From contig NZ_KE136482.1 of the NCBI RefSeq assembly GCF_000407185.1, forward strand, positions 744,001-808,000: a DNA stretch of 64,000 nt. The letters are read 5' to 3'. This stretch comes from Enterococcus malodoratus ATCC 43197 (GTDB lineage: Bacteria; Bacillota; Bacilli; Lactobacillales; Enterococcaceae). Positions 9,701-57,797 of the stretch are shown here, piece after piece. The first letter of the stretch is position 1; the number at the start of each line of letters is the position of its first letter. The notes under the pieces were generated by a model. The model saw only the letters and a list, made by a program, of their open reading frames with translations, was not told the DNA's origin and did not search any database. Position numbers and translations under genes: made by a program.

Positions 9701-10701
9701 AGCAAATAAACTTTCTGCCCATTTATTTCGTTATAGGGCAGACCGCTGTATTTAAGAAATGCTGGAGCGCCGCTTTGGGAAGGCTGTGTTTCAGAAGTCT
9801 TTTTATCTTCACTGACCCGTTCCCCATTTACGTCTAATTGCACGCCAAAGTTTACTTCCTTAGGAACTGTTTCATTATTTTCAAAATACGGTGCTCTGAA
9901 TCGGACCTTGAAGGTATATCCTTGAGCAGATGTTTGGTCGATTTTCGTCGAATCGTACTTTACGTTAAGAACATAGTTTCCATTGGCATCTTCACTATAT
10001 GCTGGTGTACCCAAGGAGAATGGATCTCCAATAACGATTTGATCAGCCAATTGACTTGGGTCCTGAACAATGGTTTTAGGGATAGAAACACTAACCGATC
10101 CATCTTTGCTTAGTTTCCCCGCAGAAGTAGAGAGTGTAACATCTAATTCAACTTGCTGCTGTGAGCCGATCGGATTCGTAGCCGTCAGTGTGACACCCGG
10201 ATCATCGCCAGCTGCCTTAGGATCGGGAGTTAAATTTCCAGCAGCAGGTTGGATGCCAGCCTTTTCAACCGGCGTAGAGATTGAGTTTCCTTCTACAGGT
10301 AAATTAGGCGAAACCGCCGCACTGTTTTGGGTAGCTTGGTGACCATCAGTAATGGTGATGGATAGTTCATTTGTTACTGTTGTGCCTGATTTTCCCGCTA
10401 GTTTAAATGTACCGGCTTTATTGCCTTTCAAATAAATCTTTTGTTGATTGTCATTGATCGTTTCTTTTTTCACTTCAGAAATCGATCCATCTTTAGTAAA
10501 TTGAAAATTGCTTAACTGCTCAGGTGTTCCTTGCAGATCTACTGCAAAGGTCTCACCGACTTTGGCCTCTTTTGAAGCAGTGGAAATCTGCAATGACGTA
10601 TTTGTTGTTTCTGCGAACACCTGCATAATTCCTAACTGTCCTAAAATCATAAAGAAGCTTGCTAGTAAGTAAACTGTTTTATTCAATACCTTTTTATTCA
10701 T
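6724..10701 (-). CDS. Large cell-wall-anchored adhesin with seven SpaA/Cna-B-type repeats
   Basis: 1325-residue secreted protein. Residues 1-30 form a signal peptide (MNKKVLNKTVYLLASFFMIL, cut near VFAET). The N-terminal half contains Ig-like and isopeptide-type adhesin domains. From about residue 625 there are seven tandem prealbumin-like SpaA/Cna-B repeats of about 93 residues. Each has a Lys near its start (LTKMD), a central acidic residue in ETKAP and an Asn near its end (MMNKK), as expected for intramolecular isopeptide bonds. The C-terminus has a YPKTGES sorting motif, a membrane helix and MNRRRQQG. The usual first Leu of LPxTG is Tyr here. It follows an Mga-like regulator and a small exported protein on the same strand, so an Mga-controlled adhesin is likely. 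The ligand is unknown. Confidence 0.9.
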   Translation of the reverse strand: MNKKVLNKTVYLLASFFMILGQLGIMQVFAETTNTSLQISTASKEAKVGETFAVDLQGTPEQLSNFQFTKDGSISEVKKETINDNQQKIYLKGNKAGTFKLAGKSGTTVTNELSITITDGHQATQNSAAVSPNLPVEGNSISTPVEKAGIQPAAGNLTPDPKAAGDDPGVTLTATNPIGSQQQVELDVTLSTSAGKLSKDGSVSVSIPKTIVQDPSQLADQIVIGDPFSLGTPAYSEDANGNYVLNVKYDSTKIDQTSAQGYTFKVRFRAPYFENNETVPKEVNFGVQLDVNGERVSEDKKTSETQPSQSGAPAFLKYSGLPYNEINGQKVYLLDTTPDTYNNNFVIIVNYNHNSYDNVTVNDQLPNNTVLHDGYKILTDVTSGDASPYKHINIYKVDQWNSNGTPKHYTYVTSDFKDKISTTDGSLSVNLGGVSSNDAYVITYGLSVDPTVTAKDFGTRYNDARELENGSQINQSKVPMIIDDSHYQAIKLNKTVDQKTLASKKGTIGYSLTLSSSSDVVHAGTIITDPLPENTRFDKTTSYDPNYISEVSYDKTKNSISYKLLKDIHANESTAIKFDVSYANAASVPGEKIVNKASINYAGSTIYSNDVTTTLAGSAYLYKTDKDSGDPLANAEFKIVDSANKTIVEGLTSDGNGFINSGLLDPGNYSFIEVKAPNGYDLDNTPIPFVVKEGQETPINLSVTNKKTLTGTVVLTKMDSKSEAPLQGAVFELRDKDGKVQQTGLTTGSDGKLTIDNLVPGDYQLIETKAPDGYELDKTPLTFTIEKDQTKPVQVSMMNKKKAPGIVILTKMDSKTEAPLQGAVFELRDKNDNILKSGLTTGPDGKLTIDNLAPGEYQLIETKAPTGYELDKTPLTFTIEKDQTKPVQVSMMNKQKDTGAVILTKKDATSGENLQGAVFELEKRDGTPLKSGLPTGADGKLAIDNLVPGEYQLVETKAPTGHDLDKTPVTFKIETGKDAAVQVSMTNKQSVDSVVLTKTDDATGENLQGAVFKLEKQDGTPLKNGLTTGPDGKLAVNNLAPGKYQFIETQAPTGYELDKTPVSFTIEKDQETAVQVSKTNKATPGAVILEKIDSETGSKLAGATFELRDKDNKVVLKNLVTDSNGKLAIKKLHAGNYQLIETKAPEGYILDKTPVKFTIKANENTQKQLTKTNKEKGKTVRLEKRDALTNEVLADANFKLIDNHGKTIQTKLVTDKNGSLSVSGLKNGKYSLVETKAPDGYILDQIPLHFVISDKTSFVQLTKLNIRKINLTVKVPHVTHRSHTYSVKTYPKTGESKSTVLTIIGLIVIGLLAVLMWMNRRRQQG
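6900..8850 (-). repeat. Seven tandem coding repeats (SpaA/Cna-B units)
   Basis: About 280-bp units within the surface-protein gene. The middle units are the most alike, with near-identical stretches encoding GLTTG.DGKL, YQLIETKAP.GYELDKTP and EKDQTKPVQVS. The outer units have diverged. Such repeats can expand or contract by recombination, so copy number may vary between strains. Confidence 0.8.
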
Positions 10702-23597: not shown

Positions 23598-24611
23598 TTA
23601 GGCAGCTTTCAATGCCGTCTCTCTAAATTGTACCGGACTCTGCCAATTGAGTTTTCCTTTCATACTTTCATGGTTATAGTAGTGAATATAATCATCAATG
23701 ACCCGCTTCAATTCATTAAAGCTATGGTATTCTCGTCCGTGATAGATTTCCTGTTTCAACAGACTGAAAAAATTCTCCATGATCGAATTGTCCAAGCAAG
23801 TACCTTTACGGGACATACTTTGGAAGATTTTATATTCTTTCAACTTATGATTGTAAGCTTTCATTTGATAGGCCCATCCTTGATCGGAATGAAACGTGCG
23901 TCGATAAACGCAGTCTTCCGTTACATGAATCGCTTCTTCTAAAGCCTCCATGATCGCCAATGCGTTCGGTTTCTCTGAAATGCGATAAGAGATAATCTCG
24001 CTGTTGTACATATCTAAAAATGGATCAAGATACAGTTTCTTTTCACGAATAATACCAGATTTGTCCGGTTCAAAATACTTTAGCTCTGTCGTATCTGTTG
24101 TAATCTTTTGATGACAAATGCTTGTGTAAAAGCGTCGATGAATTCGATTTTTCGCAAGCGTTCCGATCTTCCCACGATAAGAGTTATAGCGGCGGGATTT
24201 TCTCGTGAAGGAACGGACTTCTAGTCCTAGCTTTCGAATCAAACGTTGCACTTTCTTTTTGTTTACATGGAATCCTCGATCTTTCAGTTCATTTGTCATA
24301 CGTAAGCAGCCATAATTTGTATGTTTCTCTCTTATTTTAAGCATTTCCTCTTCGATTTCCTGATCTGGATTTTCGCGATCAAACCGTTTTTGCCAATACA
24401 TAAAGGTTGATTTAGGAAATTTCAAGGTTTCAAGAAGCTCAATTAATTTGAATGATCCTCGGAGGCTGTCGATGATTCGCGCGATTGATTCGTTCGTCTT
24501 TGTTGGGCTTCCTGTTTTCGCAGCTTCCTCAATTCTTTTAAAAAGGCATTCTCGATCTGAAGGGAACGCACTTGTTTTTCTAGTCTTTATTTTACAATAC
24601 AAGTGCAACAC
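23598..24611 (-). CDS. IS3-family transposase OrfB (interrupted element)
   Basis: DDE transposase part of the IS150-like element. The HTH_21 region (about 95-150; YGCLRMTNELKDRGFHVNKK) precedes the rve integrase core with TDTTELKYF, FLDMYNSEIISYRI, FHSDQGWAYQM and the Glu in CLDNSIMENFF. In the intact element it would be made as an OrfAB fusion by -1 frameshifting. Its 5' region, up to 24585, is separated from orfA by IS30, so fusion is impossible here. The first 15-20 residues are read from IS30 sequence. Confidence 0.85.
   Translation of the reverse strand: MLHLYCKIKTRKTSAFPSDRECLFKRIEEAAKTGSPTKTNESIARIIDSLRGSFKLIELLETLKFPKSTFMYWQKRFDRENPDQEIEEEMLKIREKHTNYGCLRMTNELKDRGFHVNKKKVQRLIRKLGLEVRSFTRKSRRYNSYRGKIGTLAKNRIHRRFYTSICHQKITTDTTELKYFEPDKSGIIREKKLYLDPFLDMYNSEIISYRISEKPNALAIMEALEEAIHVTEDCVYRRTFHSDQGWAYQMKAYNHKLKEYKIFQSMSRKGTCLDNSIMENFFSLLKQEIYHGREYHSFNELKRVIDDYIHYYNHESMKGKLNWQSPVQFRETALKAA
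24536..24542 (-). other. Probable -1 ribosomal frameshift site of the IS3 element
   Basis: Minus strand T-TTA-AAA fits the slippery pattern X-XXY-YYZ. It lies where the orfA frame (RLEKQVRSLQIENAFLKEL) and the orfB frame (KRIEEAAKTG) overlap. Confidence 0.5.
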
Positions 24612-25676
24612 GATGTGTTTCCCTAGTCTTTCTAATATAATTAAAACAAGGATTTTTCAGAGACGAAGGAGGAGCGATCATGGGAACATACAGACATTTA
24701 TCAATTAAGGAAAGAGAACTAATCTACCTTTATAACGGTATGGGCTTTTCAGTCCGCCGCACTGCAATACTGTTGAAACGAAGTCCGTCCACTATTTCAA
24801 GAGAGTTACGACGGCATACTGAGAGAAGATACTATTCTCCTCACTTCTCTCAAAATAGTTATAAGAAGAATCGTAGTCGCTGCGGTAGGAAAAGATTGTT
24901 AGCTAATCCGTCTCTAAGAAAAATCATCGAACCTTTATTTCTGATACGTCAATGGTCTCCGGAACAAATAGTGCATCGTCTAAAACACGAAGATATCAAC
25001 GTTCAGGTGAGCTACAATACCATTTACCGAGCTATTTATCACGGACTGTTTAATAGCACTCTTTCCCGTGATAGTAAAGGTGCTATTCGCAAATTGCGTC
25101 ATCAGGGAAAGCAACGAAAAACCAAAGATTTTGAAGAAACTCGTGGGCATCTTCCTATTTCTCATGCAATACATGAACGTCCATCTGAAGCTGAATTGCG
25201 CTCTGAATTAGGACATTGGGAAATAGACACTGTGCATGGAAAAAAGGGAAAGAATTGCCTAGTGACTTTAGTAGATCGCAAATCGCGTTTTTTATTGGCG
25301 GGAAGAACTATGAATAAATCAGCAGCAGCTATTTACTCGTCTTTGGACAGTTTACTAGTCTCGTTAAATCCAATGAACTTGAAAAGCATTACTTCCGATA
25401 GAGGTTCTGAATTTGCATTACATTCAGACATTACTAAAAAACATTCGGTTGAGTTCTATTTTTCTGATCCTTACTCGCCATGGCAAAGAGGAACAAACGA
25501 GAATACAAATGGATTGATTCGTGAGTACTTGCCTAAGAGAAAAGATATAGGAGACTATACAGACGAGTTTATAGAGCAATTCGTTGACAAAATGAATCTT
25601 AGACCTAGAAAATGTTTAGGCTGGAAAACACCATATGAAGTCTTTTATGATAAAGTGTTGCACTTAATTTGATAAT
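24586..25676 (+). mobile_element. IS30-family element nested inside the IS3 element
   Basis: About 1.09 kb, with imperfect terminal repeats sharing AAGTGCAACAC near each end (left 24598-24612, right 25655-25668). Removing it with a 2-bp duplication (TC on the plus strand) restores the IS3 orfA frame, joining DRIKER to LEKQVRSLQ. The exact ends are uncertain by a few bases. Confidence 0.75.
24680..25672 (+). CDS. IS30-family transposase (nested copy)
   Basis: 330-residue DDE transposase. The N-terminal HTH (LSIKERELIYLYNGMGFSVR, RSPSTISRELRRH) is followed by a catalytic core with LGHWEIDTVHGKKG (first Asp), ITSDRGSEFALH (second Asp) and the Glu in RGTNENTNGLIREY. A full-length, apparently intact gene with AGGAGCGATC upstream of the ATG. 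It could still be mobile. Confidence 0.9.
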   Translation: MGTYRHLSIKERELIYLYNGMGFSVRRTAILLKRSPSTISRELRRHTERRYYSPHFSQNSYKKNRSRCGRKRLLANPSLRKIIEPLFLIRQWSPEQIVHRLKHEDINVQVSYNTIYRAIYHGLFNSTLSRDSKGAIRKLRHQGKQRKTKDFEETRGHLPISHAIHERPSEAELRSELGHWEIDTVHGKKGKNCLVTLVDRKSRFLLAGRTMNKSAAAIYSSLDSLLVSLNPMNLKSITSDRGSEFALHSDITKKHSVEFYFSDPYSPWQRGTNENTNGLIREYLPKRKDIGDYTDEFIEQFVDKMNLRPRKCLGWKTPYEVFYDKVLHLI

Positions 25677-26111
25677 TCCTCGTTCCTTAATTCGGTCGCG
25701 TTCTTCAGGTGTTTCCTTATTTGTCTTTTTAGTTTCTTTTTTCTTAGACACGATGGTTGGACGTCCTTTCGGTTTTGAGAGTCCGTCTAAACCTTCTGCA
25801 CGAAAGTTTTTCATCCAGTTGGCAATTAGCGTAGGGTTATTCATCCCTAATTGATTCGCCACTTCACGATAGGACAGCTCACTTGTTTGATATAACTCTA
25901 TCGCATCCATCTTAAATTGAACAGAATAAATTTGATTTTGCCGTTTTCGAAGGAGTCCTTCTTCGCCGAATTCTCGATAGACATTGATCCAATCTTTTAC
26001 TTGTCTTTCAGACTTTATCCCGTGTTTCTTTGATAAATATTTCGCTCCTCCTTTCCCGTCAAGATACTCTTGAACGATTTTTACCTTGAGTTCAAAACTA
26101 TATTTAGCCAT
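25677..26111 (-). pseudogene. IS3-family OrfA, 3' end replaced by IS30 sequence
   Basis: OrfA of the IS150-like element. Two helix-turn-helix segments are visible (SKKHGIKSERQVKDWINVY, YREVANQLGMNNPTLIANWM), followed by the basic KPKGRPTIVSKKKETKK linker. The IS-derived reading ends at about 25677 (ERDRIKE); the frame then runs into IS30 for some 20 codons to a stop at 25605. The leucine-zipper and frameshift part is cut off and lies on the other side of IS30. Confidence 0.8.
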
Positions 26112-26845: not shown

Positions 26846-27430
26846 TCATATCTTTTTGCCATTTCTATCTTCTCCTTTATTTAGTGAAAATAAAAAATCC
26901 ATATCTTGTTCAGCAAAAGCTTGCTGCAAGATTTTTTTCCCACGATAAAGATAATTATTAACCGTCTTTTGAGGGATTTTTAGATCACTGCTGATCATAG
27001 CCGGTGTATTTTCGAAAATATAGCGCTGCAAACAAATTTCACGCATTGGATCATTCAAACTGTTGATCAAATAAAATATTTCATTAATAAACTCGTTTTT
27101 TTCTTCCGCTGCTGCTAGATCATCCAGCGTGAAATTATCATTGAGCAGATAATCTTTTGGGTTGCGTTGAAGCTTATTAATGCTGAGACTCCTCGTAATC
27201 AATATTAGATAATTCTTGAGTGATCCGCGTTTCGGTTGATACTTTGCCGGGGACCTCCATACCCGTAAAAAGGCCTCACTTACAATTTCTTCAATATCCT
27301 GTGGATCATTATTTTTCCCTAGTATTGATAAGGAAACGACCCAAAGCAGTTTTGAATACCTGTCAACTAACATTTCGAAGGCTTCTTCGTTATGCTGCTC
27401 AATCCTTCGCAACAAGTCTAAGTCTTCCAA
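26846..27430 (-). CDS. ECF-type RNA polymerase sigma factor
   Basis: About 194 residues from a TTG at 27430. This start is chosen because AGGAGG lies 7 bases upstream, although the frame is open to 27475. Region 2 (about 10-75; NEEAFEMLVDRYSKLLWVVS) and region 4 (about 125-185; LKIPQKTVNNYLYRGKKIL) are clear. It overlaps the start of the membrane partner gene by 17 bp, a standard ECF sigma/anti-sigma arrangement. Since the partner is broken by ISs, the sigma factor may be unregulated. The regulon is unknown; it may include this operon. Confidence 0.85.
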   Translation of the reverse strand: MEDLDLLRRIEQHNEEAFEMLVDRYSKLLWVVSLSILGKNNDPQDIEEIVSEAFLRVWRSPAKYQPKRGSLKNYLILITRSLSINKLQRNPKDYLLNDNFTLDDLAAAEEKNEFINEIFYLINSLNDPMREICLQRYIFENTPAMISSDLKIPQKTVNNYLYRGKKILQQAFAEQDMDFLFSLNKGEDRNGKKI

Positions 27431-27581
27431 AATTATCCCTCCTCTTTTTACTGTTTCAGTCATATATATATACACAGAGAAATCGGAAATATACTAAATT
27501 TTTTTCAACTTTTTTATATCCGAAGAATGAGGCAACAAAAATTAACCGTTTACATTAAAGTATACACAATCGAAAAAGCAA

Positions 27582-27790: not shown

Positions 27791-28842
27791 ATTGTCAAAT
27801 TAAGTTAGACAAATCATCAATACTTACGTAACTCAAAAATACTTCCAAAGGTGTTCGATAATCCAGTGATTTTCTAGGAATATTATTTCGTTTAGATGTG
27901 ACAGATTGAATAAAAGATTCATCTACTGAATTGAAATCCATAGATTTCAATAAACCATCTCTACGTAACAATCCGTTAGAATTCTCGTTTAGGCCTCTTT
28001 GAGACGGCGTTCCTGGATCAGCGAAATAAATGGCAATATCATTGGCATTACTGATTTGTTTCCAATTTGAAAATTCCTTTCCACAATCAAAAGTGATGGA
28101 TTTGAATAGATTTTTCGGTACAGATTCAAACCAATGATTTAATTTTTTTTCAATATCAATCGCTTGTCTACCACACGGTTTCAATGTGATGATAACTTTT
28201 GATAATCGTTCAACTAAGGTAATTACAGCACTTTTATGTTTCAGACCTACGATAGTGTCACCTTCAAGGTGACCAAACTCATTTGAGAATTGGCTATAAT
28301 CTTTTTCACGTTCATGAATAGAGCGGCGGAAAGCTTGTTTTCCACGCCTTTCTTGATGTCCATTCGGTTTACGCTTGCCTTTCATCGGTAAGTCAGAAGG
28401 ATTAAATAGCCCCTTTTTGAACATACGATAAATGGTACGAGCAGAACAACGAATAGGAAACGCTGCACGACCAACAATCACATCGGGTGTCCATCCTTGA
28501 ACAACCTTTCTTTGAATATATTCTGATTGTTCCTCGGGTAAAACAAGCGGGCGTCTACCACAGTTTGATTTGTTTTTCTTATACTGTTGATAGTATTCTA
28601 AGGCTGATTTTCCTTGCTTGAAGAATAGGTATACTTTATGGATCGTTTGTCTTGAACGATTCAAGCAATGCGCAGTTTTCGCAACAGATTGATTTATTTT
28701 GAAATAAGACTCTATCATTACAAGTTCATCCGTTGTAAGATGGGTATAGGTCATTTGTACTCACTCCTTATAATTCTTTGGTCAGAACTATTTTGAGTGT
28801 AGCACAAATGGCTTTTTTAGTTGTCTAGCTTAATTTTACAAT
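27791..28842 (-). mobile_element. IS30-family element (second type)
   Basis: 1052 bp bounded by 22-bp inverted repeats with two mismatches (27791-27812 and 28821-28842; core AAATTAAG.TAGACAA). A transposase gene fills it. No clear target duplication was recognised. It differs from the nested IS30 at 24586. Confidence 0.85.
27795..28754 (-). CDS. IS30-family transposase
   Basis: 319 residues. The N-terminal HTH (HLTTDELVMIESYFKINQSV, HCLNRSRQTIHKVY) precedes a DDE core with FGHLEGDTIVGLKH, ITFDCGKEFSNW and the Glu in RGLNENSNGLLRRD. AAGGAGTGAG precedes the ATG. The stop lies inside the terminal repeat. The gene looks intact. Confidence 0.9.
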   Translation of the reverse strand: MTYTHLTTDELVMIESYFKINQSVAKTAHCLNRSRQTIHKVYLFFKQGKSALEYYQQYKKNKSNCGRRPLVLPEEQSEYIQRKVVQGWTPDVIVGRAAFPIRCSARTIYRMFKKGLFNPSDLPMKGKRKPNGHQERRGKQAFRRSIHEREKDYSQFSNEFGHLEGDTIVGLKHKSAVITLVERLSKVIITLKPCGRQAIDIEKKLNHWFESVPKNLFKSITFDCGKEFSNWKQISNANDIAIYFADPGTPSQRGLNENSNGLLRRDGLLKSMDFNSVDESFIQSVTSKRNNIPRKSLDYRTPLEVFLSYVSIDDLSNLI

Positions 28843-28858
28843 CGGCGATATTAAACGT

Positions 28859-29644
28859 TTAATCCGCGTTTTCTTTTATTTCTTCTATTACTTGAACTAC
28901 TTGGGCGAATCTCTTAGGGTCGCTGCCGAAGCGGCCGATTAGAACGCCGTCGATGTTTTCATCTTTTACTAGTAGCCGTGTGTTTTCGGGACTGACTGAA
29001 CCGCCGTAAATAATGCGAACATTTTGTGCTGCTTCGTCAGTGAAAAAGTCAGCGATGATTTTTCGGATCATCTCGCCTACCTTATGCACTTGAGGTGCGG
29101 AGGCCGCTAAGGTTTTTCCGACTACCCATTTTGGTGTGTAGGCGATAATTATTTTGTTGATTTCTGAAGCAGCTATATCAAGCGTATCTATATAAAGTTG
29201 TCTTCTTAATTGAAGCTCGATTTCATGATAATCATCGGTCTTATCTTTCTCGCCTACACACAGGATTGGAATCAAGCCGTTTTCCAAAGACAAACGAACT
29301 TTTTTATTGATAATCTCATCCGTATCGCCGAACAATTCACGCCGTTCCCAATGACCGATTTCGACGTATTTCCCGCCAATATCAATCAGTGATTCAATCG
29401 AATATTCACCTGTATACTGACCATGTTTATAGGGTGCGATATTTTGAGCTCCCAGAAGTACGGTAGTATCCTTGGTGACTTCTGAAACAAACGGCAATGT
29501 TCCAATTGATGGGAAAATAATTTTTTCTATCTCCGTATCGTTGTTAAGTTCCTTGATTATTTCAGAAGCAAAATTTACTGCATCTATTTTTTTGTTTTGT
29601 CTCATTGCCCAACTCATAGCAACAACAGGTTTTCGAATTGACAT
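28859..29644 (-). CDS. Triosephosphate isomerase-like protein lacking catalytic Lys and Glu
   Basis: 261 residues with a TIM-barrel sequence of the TpiA family. VEIGHWERRELFGD keeps the electrophilic His. IIYGGSVSPENT and DGVLIGRFG give the phosphate-binding loops. However, the N-terminal motif that normally holds the catalytic Lys (NWKMN-like) reads MSWAMRQN, and the catalytic Glu of AYEPxW is Thr (AYTPKWVVGK). The paralogue at 34762 has both residues. It is the last gene of the DhaK/DhaL operon, 5 bp after dhaL. It may bind a sugar phosphate, act in a different reaction or partner the active enzyme; TIM activity is unlikely. Confidence 0.8.
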   Translation of the reverse strand: MSIRKPVVAMSWAMRQNKKIDAVNFASEIIKELNNDTEIEKIIFPSIGTLPFVSEVTKDTTVLLGAQNIAPYKHGQYTGEYSIESLIDIGGKYVEIGHWERRELFGDTDEIINKKVRLSLENGLIPILCVGEKDKTDDYHEIELQLRRQLYIDTLDIAASEINKIIIAYTPKWVVGKTLAASAPQVHKVGEMIRKIIADFFTDEAAQNVRIIYGGSVSPENTRLLVKDENIDGVLIGRFGSDPKRFAQVVQVIEEIKENAD

Positions 29645-29649
29645 TTGTA

Positions 29650-30303
29650 TCAGCTCCTTTTTTTAAGTTCCTGATCAAACACATTCATTAACATCCATGA
29701 GGAATCGGAACCTGGATCACGATGTCCGATTGCTCGTTCGCCTAGCCTCATGGCTCTTCCTTTCTTGGCAACCAATGGGATCGTCGCATCAGATCCTGCT
29801 CTCATTGCACGAACAAATGAGTCGAAAAAGCTTAATGGATCTTCTGATTCTTGATAGTCATTGATTAATTTTAAGCCCGGAAGAAAGGCATCAATCATGG
29901 TTTTATCCCCTAACTCAGCCTTGCCGCGGAATTGAACAGCCTCGATCCCTGTCCGGATCATATCCAAAAATTCTGAGAATGTTACCTCTGTGCGATCAGG
30001 GTAGTTTCCGCCCATCTTCATGAAGAAGCTTCCATATAAAGGACCAGCCGCACCACCCACTTTAGATAGCAGAATCATCCCAGATTTCTTTAAGAGTGAA
30101 TTTATATCCGGATTTTCTTCGGCTAGTTGGTCGATTTTATCCATAATTCCTCTGAAACCAATACTCAAATTGATTCCATGGTCGCCATCTCCAATATCGG
30201 AATCCAACTTCGTCCAATGATCTCTTTGTTCTTCAGAAAGCTTTGCCATTCCCTTTAATGAATCGACAAAAAATTGTTTATCTAGCTTGTTTATTGAACT
30301 CAT
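29650..30303 (-). CDS. dhaL: DhaL, ADP-binding subunit of a PTS-dependent ketose kinase
   Basis: 217 residues. The nucleotide and Mg-binding aspartates lie in LDSDIGDGDHGINLSIGF (about residue 32), with the loop GGAAGPLYGSFFMKMG near 78 and HRDPGSDSSW near the C-terminus. DhaL carries tightly bound ADP that DhaM phosphorylates, and it transfers phosphate to the substrate bound on DhaK. It lies between dhaK and the TIM-like gene. Confidence 0.92.
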   Translation of the reverse strand: MSSINKLDKQFFVDSLKGMAKLSEEQRDHWTKLDSDIGDGDHGINLSIGFRGIMDKIDQLAEENPDINSLLKKSGMILLSKVGGAAGPLYGSFFMKMGGNYPDRTEVTFSEFLDMIRTGIEAVQFRGKAELGDKTMIDAFLPGLKLINDYQESEDPLSFFDSFVRAMRAGSDATIPLVAKKGRAMRLGERAIGHRDPGSDSSWMLMNVFDQELKKRS

Positions 30304-31371
30304 GACTCTACCAGCTCCTTAGTTTGAATGAAAGACTATATCTTATAGTAAGGCGTATCGCATGGGGTATCCAGCAATTCCTCGATTTCATTATCCAATT
30401 TAAGAAGTGTGACAGACATACCGATCATATCCATTGATGTCGCATAGTTGCCTACTTCAGCCTTATGAATCTCAATGCCTTTTTCGTTCAGAATCTGATT
30501 GACTCTGCGGTAGCAAACGTATTGGTCCATTACAGGAAGTCCGCCTAACCCATTGACTAAAACATAGACTTTGTCTCCTTTAGCAATTCCAGAATCAGCC
30601 AAAATATGGTCCATAATTTCATCGACAACTTCATCCGCAGGTTTGATTTTCGAGCGTTCGATCCCTGGTTCACCATGAATTCCCATGCCAACTTCCATTT
30701 CATCCTCAGCCATTTCAAAAATTGCTTTACCTGTTACTGGCAAGGTTGATGAAGAAAGAGCGACACCCATTGAGTAAGTGTTGTCATTTGCTCGTTCGGT
30801 CACGGCCTTGACTGTATCCAAATCATAGCCTTTTGCGGCAGCACTGCCGGCTACCTTGAAAACAGGAACATCACCCGCAACACCGCGGCGATCTTTTTTA
30901 TTTTTTGAAGAATAGACATCATCCGTTACAACAACTGTTTCGACCCGAATGCCATCTTCGTCTAATGCCATCTCAGCACCCATATCAAAGTTCATTACAT
31001 CGCCAGCGTAATTTCCATAAAGGAACAAGCTGCCTTTCCCACTGTCAACGGCTTTAACTGATCGATAACAAGCATCAGGGGCAGGAGAAGTATTGATGTT
31101 TCCTACAACCGCAGCATCGGCGAAATCCTTGCCAACATACCCTAAAAATAACGGTTCGTGACCTGCTCCGCCACCAACAATAATCCGCACACGAGGTTCT
31201 TCACTCATCACTTTGCTGACAATCACGCGGGGATGTTCTTCATCAATTTTTACATACTTGCCATTTGCTGTAAAGGGCCACGATAAAATGTAGGAAAAGG
31301 GCCATCGAAAATGTAGGTTAGATTTAAAATCTGATATTCTTTTTCATGAAACCATTCAAGGAGAGTGACTC

Positions 31372-32598
31372 ATGCGAAAAGATGTCTTAGAAGGAGTCTT
31401 ACGACACATTATGAACGATATTCAACCTAACTATGCAGCCATGGCCAAGCAATATAATTGTGATTACCGAACAGTCAAGCGTTACTATGAAGCTGGAACT
31501 AAAGGGGAAGTAGAACAGATCAAAAAGAGACAATCTTCTGCTCCTCTTTTATTAAGCGGTTTTGAAGAAATTATTAAAGATAAAATGGAGTTAAGCTGTT
31601 CCGCTTCTTCAATTTATTATTTTATTAAGAAAAAAGGATATCAAGGTGGCTATACCACCGTCAAACGATATTGTCGGAACTATCGAGAAAAGCGTGTAAA
31701 AAAGGCAACCATTCGAATTGAAACGACGCCAGGTCTTTCTGCTCAAGTCGATTGGAAAGAAAATATTAAGATGGTGAGTAAACATGGTGAAGTCTTTTAC
31801 TTCAATCTTTTTCTATATATTCTAGGCTATTCTCGCATGAAATACTTAGAGGTAACCTTTGATCGAACCCAAGCGAATGTCTTCAATTGTTTGGTCAATG
31901 CGTTTGAGTACTGCGGGAATGGTGTTCCTCAAGAAATTTGGTTTGACAATATGAAAACAGTTGTTGATAGAAGTAAAAGCCAATTTGGTCAAACCGTTTT
32001 TAACGAAAAATTTCGTCAATTTGCTAAAGATGCTGGATTCAATCCGATTGCTTGTCGCCCTTTTCGTCCACAAACCAAAGGCAAAGTTGAAGCTTTAGCT
32101 CGTACTGTTAACCGCTTAATGGTCTTTAACTACGAGTTTGAAAATGAGCAGGAGCTAAAACGAATCGTCTATGAGTTTATGAATGACTTAAATAATGAAC
32201 GTTCTCAAGCAGTGAATAATCATCCCTCTAAGCTTCTTATAGATGAACAATCGGTGTTGCGTCCTTTCAATCGTTTAGAATTAGTCAGATATGTTTCTAG
32301 AACCCAACACGTAATTAGAAAAGTTTCCATTGAATCCATGGTCCAATATCAAAACTCAAAGTATTCTGTTCCCGTGAAATATATTGGTAAAGAGGTAACT
32401 TTAGATGTCCGTAAGGACAGTCTATTCATTTGGTATGGCCATCAATGTATTCGCTCGCACCCATTAAGCAAAAAAACCTTAAATTATCAACGTGATGACT
32501 CTCTTGAGATTCTTCGATCTGATGTCTTCAAATACTTAGAAGACGAAGAGTTGGAGCGCTTTGTAGAAGAAAATTTAGATGCTTACGATGAATTATAA
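31372..32598 (+). CDS. istA: IS21-family transposase IstA
   Basis: 408 residues. An N-terminal HTH (YAAMAKQYNCDYRTVKRYYE) precedes the DDE rve core with GLSAQVDWKENIKM (first Asp), EIWFDNMKTVVDR (second Asp) and QTKGKVEALARTVNRL (Glu). CAAGGAGAG precedes the ATG. The stop overlaps the region where the istB message begins. This copy is full length, unlike the one at 56561. Confidence 0.93.
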   Translation: MRKDVLEGVLRHIMNDIQPNYAAMAKQYNCDYRTVKRYYEAGTKGEVEQIKKRQSSAPLLLSGFEEIIKDKMELSCSASSIYYFIKKKGYQGGYTTVKRYCRNYREKRVKKATIRIETTPGLSAQVDWKENIKMVSKHGEVFYFNLFLYILGYSRMKYLEVTFDRTQANVFNCLVNAFEYCGNGVPQEIWFDNMKTVVDRSKSQFGQTVFNEKFRQFAKDAGFNPIACRPFRPQTKGKVEALARTVNRLMVFNYEFENEQELKRIVYEFMNDLNNERSQAVNNHPSKLLIDEQSVLRPFNRLELVRYVSRTQHVIRKVSIESMVQYQNSKYSVPVKYIGKEVTLDVRKDSLFIWYGHQCIRSHPLSKKTLNYQRDDSLEILRSDVFKYLEDEELERFVEENLDAYDEL

Positions 32599-32608
32599 GG
32601 AGGCTCAT

Positions 32609-33370
32609 ATGTCAAATTACCATCAGTTATTAAATCAATTATCAGATTTAAATCTTACCTGTATCAAAGAAATTTTACCTGCCCATTTAGATGAAGTAGC
32701 TAAAAATGAACAATCTCTAGTTGATTCTTTATTTGAATTAACACATCAAGAAATTAGCTATCGTAGAAAGGAGACCCAAAGAAAAATTTTAAAACGGGCA
32801 ATGTTTCCCTATCATAAACGCCTTCATGATTTTAACTTTGATTTTCAACCCAAAATCAAAAAAAGTGAAATTCAAGATTTAGTGACATTACGCTTTTTAG
32901 ACACGTATGACAACCTTTTATTCATTGGAAATAGCGGTGTTGGAAAAACTCATTTAGCCGTTTCAATTGGTTTAGAGTGTATTGATAGAGGGCAGAGCTG
33001 TTTATTTATCACTAGTACAGAACTGGTTAATCGACTTATCCGGGCACATAAACGTGGGACAAGTGATACCATGCTCAAAAAATATGCGAGCTATTCTGTA
33101 TTAATTATTGATGAAGTCGGGTATCTCCCCTTCTCAAAAGAAGGATCTAACTTACTGTTTCAACTAATTAATATGCGATACGAAAGAAAATCAACGATTA
33201 TTACAACGAATATTCCTCTGTCTCAATGGTCCGAAATTTTTGGTAATAAGAAATTGACTAATGCTTTATTGGACCGATTGGTCCATCATTCTAAAATTAT
33301 TCAAATTACAGGACCTTCCTATCGAATGAAAAGTTATAGTGAAACGAAAGGAAAAGAAACGAAACGATAA
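32609..33370 (+). CDS. istB: IS21-family helper ATPase IstB
   Basis: 253 residues from the ATG at 32609, chosen for the AAGGAGG 5 bases upstream; the frame is open from 32579. AAA+ ATPase of the DnaC/IstB type with Walker A GNSGVGKTHLAVSIG and Walker B VLIIDEVGYLPF. It helps IstA choose targets. The gene is identical at the protein level to the second copy. Confidence 0.93.
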   Translation: MSNYHQLLNQLSDLNLTCIKEILPAHLDEVAKNEQSLVDSLFELTHQEISYRRKETQRKILKRAMFPYHKRLHDFNFDFQPKIKKSEIQDLVTLRFLDTYDNLLFIGNSGVGKTHLAVSIGLECIDRGQSCLFITSTELVNRLIRAHKRGTSDTMLKKYASYSVLIIDEVGYLPFSKEGSNLLFQLINMRYERKSTIITTNIPLSQWSEIFGNKKLTNALLDRLVHHSKIIQITGPSYRMKSYSETKGKETKR

Positions 33371-33522
33371 AGAGAAAACTACCTACAATTTCAATGGCCC
33401 AAAACCAACATTTTATTATGGCCCTTGACATTTGCGGCAGCGTATCCTTCAAGCATTTCCTCTACTACTTCATATCCATCATTTACTAGTCTTTTCATAC
33501 TAAATACCTCTTTTCATATAGT

Positions 33523-33864
33523 TTATAAAAATAGCGATAATAGGAATGCCCCAACAATACCGCCAGAGATTGCCGCAAAGACATTCTTCATTGATTTCTT
33601 AACACCAAAGCCTAATCTAGCCGTTGCTACCCAACAACCAATTCCCGCTGCAAGCCCCATGTCGACCCAGGCTTTACCAGATTGAGTGATCATCGGAGTT
33701 GGGATTCCATGATTTAGCGTCCAAATCGTCCCTGTGATAAAGGCCGCAGCCATCCAGCCACCAATCGGTCCCCAAGAATCGACCATCTTCCCCCAAGCCA
33801 TCCGAATAAAGAATGGGAAGAGAAAAGCACCGGAAAAAGTCGCAATAAAAGCTGAAATAGTCAT
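33523..33864 (-). CDS. Small membrane protein, putative transporter subunit (Lin0368-like)
   Basis: 113 residues with three to four membrane segments (MTISAFIATFSGAFLFPFFI at the start). Repeated features include GGWMAAAFITGTIWTLNHG and KAWVDMGLAAGIG. It shares the motif WVDMGLAxGxx with the next upstream gene, showing the two are homologous halves. Similar pairs lie in the Listeria DhaKLM/TIM/RpiB locus and are named putative glycerol transporter subunits. It probably imports the operon's substrate; this is inference. Confidence 0.7.
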   Translation of the reverse strand: MTISAFIATFSGAFLFPFFIRMAWGKMVDSWGPIGGWMAAAFITGTIWTLNHGIPTPMITQSGKAWVDMGLAAGIGCWVATARLGFGVKKSMKNVFAAISGGIVGAFLLSLFL

Positions 33865-33865
33865 G

Positions 33866-34366
33866 TTAGGCTCCTCCTTTAGAAATCATATCGTTCTCGT
33901 TTTTATCTGCCATTCCATCAACAATACCCGTCGAGATGATCGCATGTTCTTCTTTTGTGGTCATCCCAGGTTCTGGTGCATTTTTGCCTTGAGTTGAATC
34001 GTTTGCCTCTAACAAATCTTTGGCAATGTCTTTTTCAAAAGCCGCCGCCACGAATCCGCCGGCTATCGCCCCTAAAATAACCACACCGATGGTCGGTAAT
34101 GATCCCTGAAAAGCATGTCCGCCAGTTAGGAACGTATCTCTGAAGATGCCGCAAACTCCGATCGCAAGCCCCATATCGACCCAGGCCGCATCGTCCTTAT
34201 TGTCCACCAAATTGACATAATGATTCATAAACCATAGTGGTCCGATTAGGATCGTTGAAGCAAGATAGCCGCCAAAAATACCGCCCACCGCTGTTAATTC
34301 TTTCCACACCGCCATGACCAATACACCTGCAATCATATAACCGAAAAATGATCTCGCAAATTTCAT
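33866..34366 (-). CDS. Membrane protein, putative transporter subunit paired with the preceding entry
   Basis: 166 residues from the ATG at 34366, which has AAGGAG 8-9 bases upstream; the longer frame to 34462 would overlap dhaM. It has four to five membrane segments (FARSFFGYMIAGVLVMAVW, FGGYLASTILIGPLWFMNHY) and the motif AAWVDMGLAIGVCGIFRD. A soluble acidic tail follows. It is homologous to the 113-residue partner, which starts 1 bp after its stop. Together they probably form the sugar or polyol transporter of the operon. Confidence 0.7.
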   Translation of the reverse strand: MKFARSFFGYMIAGVLVMAVWKELTAVGGIFGGYLASTILIGPLWFMNHYVNLVDNKDDAAWVDMGLAIGVCGIFRDTFLTGGHAFQGSLPTIGVVILGAIAGGFVAAAFEKDIAKDLLEANDSTQGKNAPEPGMTTKEEHAIISTGIVDGMADKNENDMISKGGA

Positions 34367-34379
34367 TTGATTCATCTCC

Positions 34380-34760
34380 TTAGATTTTTGATAGTTCCAG
34401 AAAAATGTTTTCCTTGGAATCGCCGATCGAAGCTTGAATAGCAGCCGCAAAGGCTCCCTCAATTAACGGCGCATCAACCAATGACACTTTTTCCTTTATA
34501 GGCTCCTCCAACATTTCGATCGCAACTTCAGCACTCATGATAGCGCTTCCTATATCGCAAAAAATAAAAATGTCCTCACAATCTTTACATGCATAAATGC
34601 CATCAAGAATCTTCATCGCACTTGTCCCTAAGCGTTGATCCTCTGTACCGCCCAAAGAAAGAATTCGGACTGGACTTGATTCTGATACCATCTCTTCAAT
34701 CATCTCTTTCAGTCCGTCAGTGATTTTCTGACTATGAGACACTAACAATATTCCTTTCAT
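34380..34760 (-). CDS. dhaM: DhaM, PTS EIIA-type phosphotransfer subunit
   Basis: 126 residues from the ATG at 34760 (GGTGG upstream), beginning MKGILLVSHSQKITDGLKEM. EIIA-Man fold, with active His in LVSHS (residue 9-10). It is the short, single-domain DhaM type that takes phosphate from HPr and rephosphorylates ADP on DhaL. Its presence shows the kinase uses PEP rather than ATP. It starts 1 bp after the stop of the TIM-like gene. Confidence 0.88.
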   Translation of the reverse strand: MKGILLVSHSQKITDGLKEMIEEMVSESSPVRILSLGGTEDQRLGTSAMKILDGIYACKDCEDIFIFCDIGSAIMSAEVAIEMLEEPIKEKVSLVDAPLIEGAFAAAIQASIGDSKENIFLELSKI

Positions 34761-34761
34761 G

Positions 34762-35544
34762 TCATCCACCCTTTGCTTTATTTTTTAAAATCGCTTTCAC
34801 AATAGTTTCAAAATTTTCTGGCTTGTGGCCAAACCGGCCAACAAACACTCCATCTACGTGATCCGATTTAGTTATTTCGTAGGCATTTTCTTTTGATACT
34901 GAGCCACCATAGATCAATCTGATCGAATTTGCAACTATATCGTCGAAATTGTTTTTGAGAATCGTGTAGATGATCTCATGCGTCTTCCATACATGGCTAT
35001 TAGGCGCCGCCTGCTCTTTTCCAATTGACCAACCCGGTTCATAGGCAATAATCAGCTTATCCGCATCTTCAACGTTGATATTTTGAAGCGCGCCAACCAG
35101 CTGCCCCTCGAGAAACGTATAAAGTTCGCTGTAAGTGAGGTTCTCATCTCTTTCACCGACACATAATATAGCCGTCATTCCGAAGGATAAGCTTAGTTCA
35201 ACCTTTTGTTTGATCATGGCGTCGGTCTCGTTAAAATAGTTTCTTCTTTCAAAATGACCGATTTCTACGTACTGTCCGCCAATCGCGTCTAACGTTTCGA
35301 TTGAATACTCGCCAGTATACGCACCATTGCTTTTAGGGGAAATATTTTGCGCGCCGAAGCCTAACTTTGTATTAGATAATTGCTCGGCAACACTCTCCAG
35401 GGTACCTATACTCGGCAGGATAAATATTTCTGCCTCTTGAGTGTGCCCCTCAGCGACTGACTGAATCGCTGAGGCCAACTTCACACTTTCTTCTGGGAGA
35501 TTGATATAATTTTTCAAGCTCATGCCAACAATCGCTTTTTTCAT
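34762..35544 (-). CDS. Triosephosphate isomerase-like sugar-phosphate isomerase
   Basis: 260 residues, TpiA family. The catalytic residues are all visible: Lys in GMSLKNYI, His in VEIGHFERRNYF and Glu in IIAYEPGWSIG; the phosphate loops IRLIYGGSVSKEN and DGVFVGRFG follow. It resembles the TpiA2/EryH/LerI branch found in tetritol and DHA-kinase operons rather than glycolytic TpiA. It lies between transaldolase and dhaM. A likely reaction is interconversion of L-erythrulose 1-phosphate and D-erythrulose 4-phosphate; triosephosphate isomerisation is the alternative. Confidence 0.85.
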   Translation of the reverse strand: MKKAIVGMSLKNYINLPEESVKLASAIQSVAEGHTQEAEIFILPSIGTLESVAEQLSNTKLGFGAQNISPKSNGAYTGEYSIETLDAIGGQYVEIGHFERRNYFNETDAMIKQKVELSLSFGMTAILCVGERDENLTYSELYTFLEGQLVGALQNINVEDADKLIIAYEPGWSIGKEQAAPNSHVWKTHEIIYTILKNNFDDIVANSIRLIYGGSVSKENAYEITKSDHVDGVFVGRFGHKPENFETIVKAILKNKAKGG

Positions 35545-35560: not shown

Positions 35561-36208
35561 TTATTTACTCTTGAAATTTTCCCAATCCTTCATAAATTGA
35601 GTAATGCCATTCGTCGTCAGTGGATGCGTCCATAGTTTTGAAAACAATGATCCTGGGATCGTTGCAATGTCAGAACCTACAGCAGCTACCGCTTCAACAT
35701 GACCAATCGTTCGAACACTTGCCGCGATGATCTCTGATTTATAACCATATTCGCGAAAGACTTTTTTCAGATCCGCAACAACTTTTACGCCATCTGTTCC
35801 AGTATCATCCAAGCGACCAACAAACGGACTGACAAAAGTTGCTCCAGCTTTTGCGGCCATCAGACCTTGCGCAACTGAGAAGATCAACGTGACATTCGTT
35901 TTGATATTTTCTTTTGAAAGGATATGAACCGCTGCTAATCCTGCTTCCGTTAGCGGAATTTTTACAACGATATTATCGGCCCATTTAGAAATCTTACGTG
36001 CCTCATCAACCATTCCTTCAGTGTCTAGTGAAACAACTTCCGCACTGACAGGTCCGTGAACAAGCTGAGCGATTTCTTTAATTACCGTCTCAAAATCCTT
36101 TCCCTCACGAGAAATAATGGTCGGATTGGTCGTCACGCCATCCACTAATCCTAAGACATTGATTCGTTTTATTTCATCAATATTGGCAGTATCTAGAAAA
36201 AATTTCAT
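35561..36208 (-). CDS. Transaldolase, fructose-6-phosphate aldolase type
   Basis: 215 residues, the short FSA/TalC-type of transaldolase. [20 protein letters not shown] begins the barrel and [15 protein letters not shown] follows. The Schiff-base Lys is in [12 protein letters not shown] (about residue 86), then [20 protein letters not shown] and [11 protein letters not shown]. Its start overlaps the rpiB stop by 4 bp (ATGA), indicating coupling. It would link erythrose 4-phosphate or triose phosphates to central metabolism. Confidence 0.92.
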
Positions 36209-36675
36209 TTTTCTTCCACTCCTTGTTCTGTTTCAATCGTAGTAATTTCATCGATTTTTCTTGCTGAATTTTTGCCTCGACCTTCAGTTGTAAAATGCTG
36301 ATCCAAGTAATTTGAAACGATCACTTTGGCTAACTCGATCCCAACCACTTGAGCCCCGATCGTAATAATTTGGGCATGATTACTTAATTCAGCACGTTGA
36401 GCTGAGTAAGCATCATGGGTTTGAGCCGCTCTAATTCCTTTTACTTTGTTGGCCGCAAGAGCCATCCCGATTCCAGTTCCGCAAAACAGAATGCCTCTTT
36501 CTGCTTCACCATTCAAAATTCCTTTTGCTGCTTTAAAGGCAACTTTGGGATAATCTGCAGGTGCTTGCTCGTAAATCCCGTAATCTACAACTTCATAGCC
36601 TTTTTCATCTAAATAATCTTTTATTGCTTCTTTCAACTGCAGCGCGTTATCATCACAACCAATTGCAACTTTCAT
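36205..36675 (-). CDS. RpiB/LacAB-family sugar-phosphate isomerase
   Basis: 156 residues. The active-site Cys is in [18 protein letters not shown] (about residue 70) and the His in [11 protein letters not shown]. The family includes ribose 5-phosphate isomerase B and the erythritol enzymes EryI/DerI, which convert D-erythrulose 4-phosphate to D-erythrose 4-phosphate. As first gene of the Dha/TIM/transaldolase operon, a tetrose-phosphate role is plausible. Confidence 0.9.
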
Positions 36676-36802: not shown

Positions 36803-36830
36803 TTGATTATTTGAGCAAATCATGTATAAT
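36803..36830 (+). promoter_or_regulatory. Promoter of the DeoR-family gene
   Basis: TTGATT (36803-36808), 16-base spacer, TATAAT (36825-36830), then the ribosome site GGAGAGG and the ATG at 36855. Confidence 0.7.
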
Positions 36831-36854
36831 GCAGATAGGAATGGAGAGGATAAC

Positions 36855-37622
36855 ATGTTTATTAAACAGCGCCAGCAGATCATTCTAAATATGATTGAAA
36901 AAACAGGAAACATTACTGTCGAAGAATTAGTCGCTAAGTTTAACGTCTCTGCACCAACGATTCGAGCGGATTTAAACGCGCTTGCCGAGAATCACTTGTT
37001 GATTCGAACACATGGTGGTGCGATCCGAGCAGAACAAGAAACACAGGAATTAAGCATTGAAAAGCTTTATGATAATCGGAAAAACAAAAACAATGACGAA
37101 AAAAAAATAATCGCTCAAAAAGCGATCAATTTTATAGATGACGGTGATTGTATCGTCCTAGACGCTTCTTCCACCTGCTATGAAGTAGCCAAGCTGCTTC
37201 TTTCAGAATCAATGAATTTGACCATTTTGACTCACGGGCTTCGAACCGCCAATCTCTTAAAAGAATCTCCTTTTTTTAACGTAATCATTATTGGCGGCGT
37301 CGTAAAAAGAGGCTCAAACGCCATCGAAGGAACCTTGGGATTAGATATCGTAAAAAAATTTACGATTGATAAATTCTTTACTTCAAGCTATGCCGTCTCC
37401 ATCGATGATGGCCTATCCGACTTCAGTATTTATGAATCCGAGCTAAAGACCGAGCTGATCGACTATGCGCGTCAGACCTTCGCTCTCATCGATCATACCA
37501 AGTTTGAAAAAAATTCAATCGTTAAATTTGGCGAACTCTCAAAGCTTTCAAAAATAATCACCGACAACGACCTGCTCTTTGAATTGAAATCCGAATACGA
37601 AAAGATCGTGCCTATCATATAA
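36855..37622 (+). CDS. DeoR-family transcriptional regulator
   Basis: 255 residues from the ATG at 36855, with GGAGAGG 5 bases upstream; the frame is open from 36822, but that would place the start within the -10. The N-terminal HTH (ITVEELVAKFNVSAPTIRAD, then LIRTHGGAI) and C-terminal sugar-phosphate sensor domain (CIVLDASSTCYEVAKLL, then ILTHGLRTANLL) are typical. It is divergent from the dha/rpiB operon and very likely represses it until a phosphorylated intermediate binds. Confidence 0.88.
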   Translation: MFIKQRQQIILNMIEKTGNITVEELVAKFNVSAPTIRADLNALAENHLLIRTHGGAIRAEQETQELSIEKLYDNRKNKNNDEKKIIAQKAINFIDDGDCIVLDASSTCYEVAKLLLSESMNLTILTHGLRTANLLKESPFFNVIIIGGVVKRGSNAIEGTLGLDIVKKFTIDKFFTSSYAVSIDDGLSDFSIYESELKTELIDYARQTFALIDHTKFEKNSIVKFGELSKLSKIITDNDLLFELKSEYEKIVPII

Positions 37623-55616: not shown

Positions 55617-56457
55617 CTACTCCCTAACAAACGGCATACTCATACAGCGTGGTCCGCCTCGGCCGCGAACGAGCTCGCTTCCTGGGATTGTATTTATTTT
55701 GACGCCGGCTTCTTTTAATTTCTTGTTCGTGATTGTATTACGGTCATAGACGATCACTTCGCCAGGGGCGATTGCTAGAGTGTTCGCGCCATCGTTCCAT
55801 TGCTCCCGAGCAGCTGCGGTGATATCGTTGCCGCCGCAGCGAATTAGTTCGACAGCAGGCAGATCAAGATAGCGGCACAGAATGTTCTCCAGCGTATCTT
55901 TTTCTTCACTAATTGTCACTTTTTGATTGGCTTTGATTAGCGAATAGACCACTAAGTCCCCTTCGATCTCTGGATGAATCGTAAATTTATCATGATCCAC
56001 CATCGTAAAGACGGCGTCTAAGTGCATAAATTTCCGTTCTTCGCCAATATTGAAGGCCAGTACCTGCTCAAAGCTTGGCTCTGCTTCAAAAATGCGGGCG
56101 GCTAATTTTTTGATAGATTCCATATCCGTTCTTTGAGAGATTCCAACAGCTAACACCTTACTTGAAAGCACCAACACATCGCCGCCTTCCAGTCTCGTAC
56201 TGTCTTCACGATCGTACAGCAGATTCACAGAATTCTTCATAAACATGGGATGATGGTTGAAGATATACTTGGCATATAAGGTCTCTCTGCGACGGGTTTC
56301 GGCATACATTTTGTTCAGTGCGATGCTGCTTCCGATTGTCAAGAAAGGATCACGGGTAAAATACAAGTTCGGCATTGGGTCAATATAAAATGGTGAAGTT
56401 TCATCCACCCTGCTAGATAGCTGATTTCGTTTCAACCCTGCCATCGTATGATCAATA
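55617..56457 (-). pseudogene. arcA: Arginine deiminase, N-terminus removed at an IS21 end
   Basis: The last 279 residues or so of arginine deiminase. The substrate and catalytic residues are present: [25 protein letters not shown] (His), [14 protein letters not shown], and the nucleophile Cys in [13 protein letters not shown] at the C-terminus. The normal length is about 408, so about 130 N-terminal residues are lost where IS21 begins at 56458. The missing part is not on the other side of the IS, showing a deletion or rearrangement rather than a simple insertion. The ADI pathway step encoded here is lost, unless another copy exists. Confidence 0.9.
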
Positions 56458-57787: not shown

Positions 57788-57797
57788 GGAGGCTCAT

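Follow-up and report, generated by a model that had tools for sequence, protein, structure and literature searches.

What does a protein of the triosephosphate isomerase (TIM) family do once it has lost both the lysine and the glutamate of the TIM active site, when an intact paralogue is encoded in the same operon? The question is raised by a locus of Enterococcus malodoratus ATCC 43197, within the 64,000-nucleotide stretch of DNA that we analysed and refer to as the window. We call the altered protein TIMv (TIM-fold variant) and the intact operon TIM beside it TIMp. Removal of the Lys is enough by itself to abolish TIM activity: in a study of TIM mutants (PMC12874384), K12M has no detectable activity and K12G has a kcat/Km that is 600,000-fold lower.

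TIMv is an uninterrupted gene with an altered active site

The gene and the codons that matter here are as follows, with TIM residues given their usual yeast numbers, mapped by alignment.

28859..29644, minus strand: TIMv, 261 amino acids, catalytic Lys replaced by Ala13 and catalytic Glu by Thr170
29606..29608, minus strand: codon of Ala13, the catalytic Lys position (variants Ala 7, Ser 7; intact operon TIMs Lys 23/23)
29600..29602, minus strand: codon of Arg15, Asn14 of glycolytic TIM (variants Arg 13, Gln 1; intact operon TIMs Tyr 23/23; glycolytic-type rows Asn 8/8)
29351..29353, minus strand: codon of His98, the catalytic His (His95), which is kept (variants 14/14, intact operon TIMs 23/23, glycolytic-type rows 8/8)
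29348..29350, minus strand: codon of Trp99, the Ser96 position (variants Trp 14/14; intact operon TIMs 0/23)
29135..29137, minus strand: codon of Thr170, the catalytic Glu position (variants Thr 14/14; intact operon TIMs Glu 23/23)

The TIMv reading frame is open, with no frameshift or stop, and a GGAG motif resembling a ribosome-binding site stands just 5' of its ATG. The protein matches the Pfam TIM profile at 210.2 bits (cut-off 20.1); with NCBIfam TIGR00419, both TIMv (121.3) and TIMp (112.3) score below the cut-off of 130.6. A sequence-only reading of this DNA had held that TIMv lacks both catalytic residues while its paralogue keeps them, and that the active-site His and the phosphate loops are retained. 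Alignment with intact TIMs confirms this description: Ala13 and Thr170 stand in place of Lys and Glu in TIMv, TIMp has both, His98 is found in the two proteins alike, and TIMv keeps the YGG and GR phosphate loops. Two more active-site changes, absent from that reading, are Trp99 for Ser96 and Arg15 for Asn14. Ser96 lies beside the catalytic base and, according to PMC12874384, is conserved in 98% of TIM sequences.

The AlphaFold model of TIMv, built from four input sequences, has a pLDDT of 86.3 and a pTM of 0.89. With this model as the Foldseek query, the 50 PDB chains listed were all TIMs, at TM-scores by query length of 0.82-0.91, and the predicted fold of TIMv is thus that of the TIM family. 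Loop 1, loop 3 and the lid fall in the blocks of which AlphaFold is least sure (71, 56 and 67), only the C-terminal end being lower (52).

There are three TIM genes in the source genome (4.6 Mb, 5 contigs), encoding a glycolytic TIM, TIMp and TIMv. The glycolytic TIM has Lys, His and Glu, and TIMp is thus not the sole intact TIM of the strain.

The window operon

On the minus strand, the operon runs rpiB, transaldolase-like gene, TIMp, dhaM, two DUF6905 genes, dhaK, dhaL and TIMv, with a DeoR-family regulator diverging from it.

36822..37622, plus strand: divergent DeoR/GlpR-family regulator (NF041397, 152 bits; no model over its cut-off)
36205..36675, minus strand: rpiB-like gene (NF004051, 170.4 bits, cut-off 135; DerI model NF051858, 159.6, under its cut-off of 240)
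35561..36208, minus strand: FSA/TalC-family gene with Phe129 (TIGR00875, 292.4 bits, cut-off 245.95)
34762..35544, minus strand: TIMp, intact operon TIM with Lys, His and Glu (Pfam TIM, 220.5 bits; alignment)
34380..34769, minus strand: dhaM, phosphoryl donor subunit (TIGR02364, 142.7 bits, cut-off 98.25)
33866..34462, minus strand: second DUF6905 protein (open reading frame as listed, its true start probably inside; Pfam DUF6905, 115.7 bits)
33523..33864, minus strand: DUF6905 protein (Pfam DUF6905, 115.2 bits)
33420..33498, lower limit approximate, minus strand: 5' piece of dhaK, across the insertion sequence
31372..33370, plus strand: IS21-like istA/istB reading frames inserted in dhaK, the first with rve and Mu-transposase domains
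30336..31226, minus strand: main piece of dhaK, without the N-terminus (TIGR02363, profile positions 39-328)
29650..30303, minus strand: dhaL (TIGR02365, 196.5 bits, cut-off 138.3)
27795..28754, minus strand: IS30-like transposase reading frame, 104 bp beyond the TIMv stop (Pfam hits)

TIMp is, from this context, probably a tetrulose-phosphate isomerase of the LerI/EryH type. The rpiB-like gene probably encodes a D-erythrulose-4-phosphate isomerase; the LerI and DerI steps are described in PMC10733421. The DUF6905 pair between dhaM and dhaK, the protein at 33523..33864 being what we assume might be a small transporter subunit, recurs in L035 and L036, in gol-type operons with an intact TIM (such as L039 to L045 and the Listeria loci), and is possibly an importer of the operon's substrate. 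The gol operon of Listeria is reportedly the subject of a 2012 paper by Monniot and others.

The operon has been damaged in this strain. The IS21-like element splits dhaK, and the reading frame at 27795..28754, which we take to be IS30-like, occupies the site at which E. phoeniculicola has a transketolase gene; elsewhere in the source genome there are four Transketolase_N matches, one of 490 bits. The window operon may be out of use in this strain, though TIMv itself is without a lesion.

Mobile elements are found at other places in the window. A second istA/istB copy at 56561-58559 closely resembles that at 31372-33370, its istA frame ending early (302 against 408 residues), and adjoins a frame at 55617-56444 (minus strand), presumably for an arginine deiminase and seemingly lacking its N-terminus. 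Between 23598 and 28754 lie transposase-like frames that we would name IS3-like (23598-24611, 25605-26111) and IS30-like (24680-25672, 27795-28754), placed around what we take for a sigma-factor gene (26846-27475); only 27795-28754 owes its name in part to Pfam hits.

The variants form one clade under purifying selection

A same-family search with TIMv covered 105 genomes and gave 26 matches of at least 199 bits, all of which were read: 12 were variants (8 genomes) and 14 had Lys, His and Glu. Matches at 158 bits or below lay outside this residue reading, except six taken as glycolytic rows of the tree. At the level of the order, 395 genomes searched with a profile yielded 17 matches at E <= 1e-68, again all read, and together with 29 genomes of one other family this added two variants, L072 and L073. 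With repeats of the same gene dropped (L034 repeats L036; L056, L057, L058/L068 and L059/L071 repeat others), the set stands at 14 non-redundant proteins from 10 genomes in two families, from enterococci and their kin, Enterococcus phoeniculicola among them. In each of two genomes, G006 and G013, three different sugar operons contain a TIMv paralogue apiece (L046, L048, L050, L051, L054, L055).

Wider draws were negative within their limits. Class and phylum draws of 398 genomes each, at E <= 1e-68, a threshold at which members could be missed, matched only the source genome, as did the pattern GHWER...AYTPxW in 398 phylum genomes, with a spacing of 190-220 that misses longer forms such as L046. 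The same pattern gave nothing in 17 genomes of another class, one further family of 76 genomes had no match at E <= 1e-75 (which could likewise miss members), and viral contigs scanned with two peptide patterns gave no relative. Among plasmids, tblastn matched 172 records; the best of the 30 listed was H1 (E. gilvus), which has Lys and Glu, and the matches read for residues (H1, H2, H3, H8, H13) were all intact.

Orthologues of TIMv that keep Lys and Glu were sought among these relatives and none was found. The loss is conserved in 14/14 variants (seven Ala and seven Ser at the Lys position, Thr at the Glu position in all) as against 0/23 intact operon TIMs, which rules out chance or sequencing error as its source. 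No variant has an acid side chain at the Glu column (0/14), and the Arg15 column has a single exception, Gln in L073. At the Ser96 column, where the variants have Trp, the 23 intact operon TIMs have Ile (9), Ala (7), Phe (2), Tyr (2), Ser (2) or Val (1), and never Trp.

A maximum-likelihood tree was built from 45 proteins, namely the 14 variants, the 23 intact operon TIMs and 8 other intact TIMs as the outgroup, with columns 13, 15, 99 and 170 removed. Two of the outgroup rows come from Sinorhizobium and Enterobacter plasmids, and that of Sinorhizobium may not be glycolytic. The variants fall on one side of a branch supported at 96/87, the intact operon TIMs at 96/84 and the outgroup at 100/98; the tree carries a long-branch warning, mostly among intact rows. 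The loss of Lys and Glu, as read from these alignments, fits one origin on this tree. Forcing TIMv and TIMp together is rejected (p-AU 0.0001), so TIMv is not a recent copy of its operon neighbour.

The dN/dS ratios are low: the two closest pairs of variants have 0.066 and 0.112, and two close intact pairs have 0.054 and 0.068. Two further variant pairs give 0.043 and 0.048 at a dS near 3, three pairs are saturated, and the comparison of TIMp between the window and E. phoeniculicola gives 0.190 at a dS of 2.8. Between these two strains TIMv is 62% identical and TIMp 47% (transaldolase-like protein 73%, RpiB 72%, DhaK 81%, DhaL 68%). The L072 variant is 56% and 59% identical to those of the window and L036, its intact partner 41% and 44%, whereas L037 and L038 show the opposite trend, at 59% for the variant and 62% for the partner. 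In three of these four comparisons, then, it is the variant that has diverged less than its intact partner. On the tree, the end branches of the intact partners in the window (34762-35544), L036 (7421-8227) and L072 (10584-11369) are long, at 1.11, 1.2 and 0.92 changes per column, with 0.4, 0.43 and 0.61 for the variants beside them; the partners in the other three operons with two TIMs are not long, and in L037, L038 and L073 it is the variant whose end branch is slightly longer.

Our conclusion from these comparisons is that TIMv is, as judged by codon and residue patterns, under purifying selection, which supports a protein that has been repurposed rather than one in decay. The earlier argument, that conserved barrel and phosphate loops speak against simple decay, is borne out by the loss in 14/14 members of one clade with low dN/dS.

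The pocket is kept, apart from the residues of TIM catalysis

We compared 35 pocket positions, chosen after TIM structures and backed in part by PMC12874384. Identity among the variants is 84.4% over these positions and 48.7% over the rest; among the intact operon TIMs the figures are 82.6% and 45.0%. In neither group did any of 500 random position sets of the same size reach the pocket value. Fixed in 14/14 variants are Trp12, Met14, Gln16, Asn17, Gln67, His98, Trp99, Glu100, Cys129, Tyr169, Thr170 and Pro171, and also Trp173, Val175, Tyr213, Gly214, Gly215, Gly237, Arg238, Phe239, Gly240 and Ser241. In TIM numbering, the invariant equivalents include His95, Glu97, Gln64, Tyr164, Pro166, Trp168, Tyr208, Gly209, Gly210 and Gly232.

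Some positions are relaxed: the equivalent of Thr75 is Ser in 10, Thr in three and Asn in one, that of Ser211 is Ser in 10, Thr in three and Ala in one, and that of Gly171 is kept in 12/14. Such relaxation would be expected if enediol chemistry is gone. The signature of the intact operon TIMs, Tyr15 and His190 (23/23 each) and His241 (22/23), is lost in the variants.

Set against known proteins, the variants share with TpiA (EC 5.3.1.1, PF00121) the fold, His95, Glu97, Gln64, Cys126, the lid hinge Tyr164/Pro166/Trp168 and the YGG loop. They differ from it in lacking Lys12 and Glu165 (14/14), in having Trp for Ser96 (14/14) and Arg for Asn14 (13), and in loop 8, which is GRFGS in the variants but GGASL in 7/8 glycolytic-type rows. 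Their nearest intact relatives on the tree are the intact operon TIMs, which appear from context to be of LerI type and, in the window, share an operon with DhaKLM and RpiB. The two groups have in common the GRFG loop and Lys/Gln177 in the lid; the intact operon TIMs keep Lys, Glu, Tyr15, His190 and His241, whereas the variants have lost all of these and keep only His98. On sequence, TIMv would count as a pseudoenzyme in so far as catalytic residues are lost from a conserved and selected protein, and we infer that, for practical purposes, it does not serve as a triosephosphate isomerase.

The variant is found in several kinds of sugar operon

For each variant locus we read a stretch of 13-20 kb (the window in full), with L035 cut by a contig end. 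Counts across the 14 loci are six for DhaK, six for RpiB, six for an intact operon TIM (window, L036, L037, L038, L072, L073) and 10 for an intact FSA-family, or transaldolase-like, gene. The expectation that the variant always sits next to DhaKLM/RpiB genes thus failed. The proposal that the operon pairs one active isomerase with one repurposed one fits the window, but does not generalise, given an intact TIM in 6/14 loci.

The FSA-family gene lies directly before the variant, at 31-82 bp, in seven loci; it is a fragment in L051, was not found in the L038 and L050 stretches, and L035 reaches a contig end. The L051 fragment (9589-9870, matching query residues 1-94) immediately precedes an intact TIMv. 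At a diagnostic position of this family, Tyr marks fructose-6-phosphate aldolase and Phe marks transaldolase; all 24 aligned FSA-family proteins (24/24) have Phe, and we take them to be transaldolases on this meaning of the residue. A full-length transketolase is encoded in four of the 14 loci (L036, L046, L048, L072). The contexts can be set out as follows.

Context (a), window, L035, L036: gol-like operon; GolD/DthD-family dehydrogenase in L036, over the NCBIfam cut-off
Context (b), L037, L038, L073: fructose-type PTS, DhaK, DhaL and RpiB, with an aldose-epimerase family gene downstream; L037 and L038 also have a ketose-bisphosphate aldolase upstream
Context (c), L072: PdxA, D-threonate-kinase-like protein (under the NCBIfam cut-off), KdgT permease, both TIMs and transketolase
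Context (d), L046, and L048 (assigned from its IIB, with aldolase and Gfo/Idh at 90-96% identity): mannose-family PTS, deoxyribose-phosphate aldolase, transketolase, Gfo/Idh
Context (e), L050, L051, L053 (fructose type) and L054, L055 (mannose type): PTS with a KDPG-type aldolase

The genes of contexts (a) to (c) fit a conversion of tetrulose phosphate to erythrose-4-phosphate. Seven variant loci without DhaK, RpiB or an intact TIM have PTS genes with a KDPG-type or deoxyribose-phosphate aldolase instead, and five of these seven have an intact transaldolase-like gene. The aldolases of L053 and L055 were assigned by their identity to that of L054 (66% and 92%); of the KDPG-type proteins, those of L051 and L054 pass no NCBIfam cut-off, and those of L050 and L054 pass that of Pfam. 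The products that these operons share should be glyceraldehyde-3-phosphate or related small sugar phosphates. In L037 (7650-8858) and L052 (10562-11677), one reading frame joins a DhaL-type DAK2 domain to an RpiB domain on its C-terminal side (phmmer scores in both, Pfam also in L037); this is either a fusion of kinase and isomerase or a pair of genes run together in frame.

What TIMv may do

Our main reading, to which we give a probability a little under one half, is that TIMv belongs to a selected TIM-fold subfamily that arose by a single split from the TIMs of tetrose/triose-phosphate operons, and is most likely an enzyme of different chemistry acting on a small sugar phosphate. Because the phosphate loops and most lid residues are kept, TIMv would still bind a small phosphorylated sugar in the barrel pocket, and lid closure would be retained. 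The isomerisation through an enediol, with Glu as base and Lys assisting, that TIM and the erythrulose-phosphate isomerases carry out would be beyond it. The substrate might be one such as glyceraldehyde-3-phosphate or erythrose-4-phosphate, the expected products of the neighbouring transaldolase, transketolase and aldolase genes, and the new site would consist of His98 with the new set of Thr, Trp and Arg. Somewhat more tentatively, the lineage may have turned the TIM active site, a textbook example of catalytic perfection, to a different reaction by removing the base and the Lys, placing Trp for Ser, Thr for the base and usually Arg in loop 1, and keeping the His, the phosphate grip and most of the lid, so as to supply a plug-in step in several unusual-sugar pathways of Enterococcus and its relatives.

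The relaxed positions of TIM catalysis would also be expected of a pseudoenzyme, and a ligand-sensing pseudoenzyme could keep its pocket equally well. Such a protein would bind a triose or tetrose phosphate without turnover and regulate or scaffold another protein, such as the transaldolase whose gene immediately precedes its own in seven loci. This is possible, though we think it the less probable account: the chance of a sensor or scaffold is about one third, as against about one half for a new enzyme. It would explain the loss of both general catalytic residues from a protein whose pocket and most of whose lid are kept, and it is consistent with the intact transaldolase-like gene in 10/14 loci, 31-82 bp before the variant in seven. 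However, the variant is intact where the transaldolase is absent from the stretch (L038, L050) or a fragment (L051), the regulators differ between operons, and the fixation of His98 with the new Thr, Trp and Arg (13/14) is more than simple binding may need. An enzyme is favoured by the place of the gene inside compact catabolic operons under different regulators, and by the three copies that G006 and G013 each keep in three sugar operons. In L050 a fructose-type PTS, a KDPG-type aldolase and the variant are present, with no transaldolase gene found in the stretch read, an arrangement that favours a metabolic step over an accessory role to a transaldolase.

It is improbable that TIMv pairs with the intact operon TIM in a heterodimer, as its regulatory or structural subunit, even though TIM is a dimer whose interface includes the active-site loops 1-4 (PMC12874384) and both genes share an operon in the window, L036, L037, L038, L072 and L073. 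No intact TIM was found in the stretches read at seven of the 14 variant loci (L035 reaching a contig end), and neither G001 nor G013 has an operon-type intact TIM at E <= 1e-40; the sole match of G001 is a variant, while G013 has three variants and one 143-bit match, presumed to be the glycolytic TIM. An obligate heterodimer is thus unlikely.

Comparably doubtful is an isomerase of the same kind working with substitute residues. The window's erythrulose-phosphate context would suit it, as would the retention of His95 and Glu97, and Arg15 could supply a positive charge; the published K12 and E165 mutants (PMC12874384) argue against it, as do Gln for Arg15 in L073 and the want of an acid at the Glu column in 14/14. 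The kept Glu97 says little, given that TIM is only slightly affected by E97D or E97A (PMC12874384).

Recent decay of a dispensable copy, to which the IS21-like element in dhaK and the IS30-like frame after TIMv might seem to point, is refuted as the source of the Lys/Glu loss by the sharing of that loss among 14 proteins in 10 genomes, which makes it older than the window's insertions, by the low dN/dS and by a TIMv frame free of frameshift or stop.

Significance

Catalytically dead paralogues are known that serve an active partner, the trypanosome AdoMetDC prozyme being an example. The likeness of the variants to it lies in the loss of catalytic residues from a conserved fold, with an active paralogue alongside in six variant loci. 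The variants differ from it in that seven loci have no such partner nearby and that their pocket is as conserved as an enzyme's. By title or the start of the abstract, no bacterial TIM pseudoenzyme appeared in searches of an open-licence library; the print record may hold more.

A relative of TIMv could be labelled a triose-phosphate isomerase on profile score alone, which is a warning for annotation. TIM is a model enzyme in which Lys and Glu are treated as indispensable, and a clade that replaces both with its pocket under selection is a natural experiment in the re-tooling of an active site. Should its reaction be found, it may supply the missing step in several pathways of lactic acid bacteria, still uncharacterised, for tetrose, pentonate or keto-deoxy sugars.
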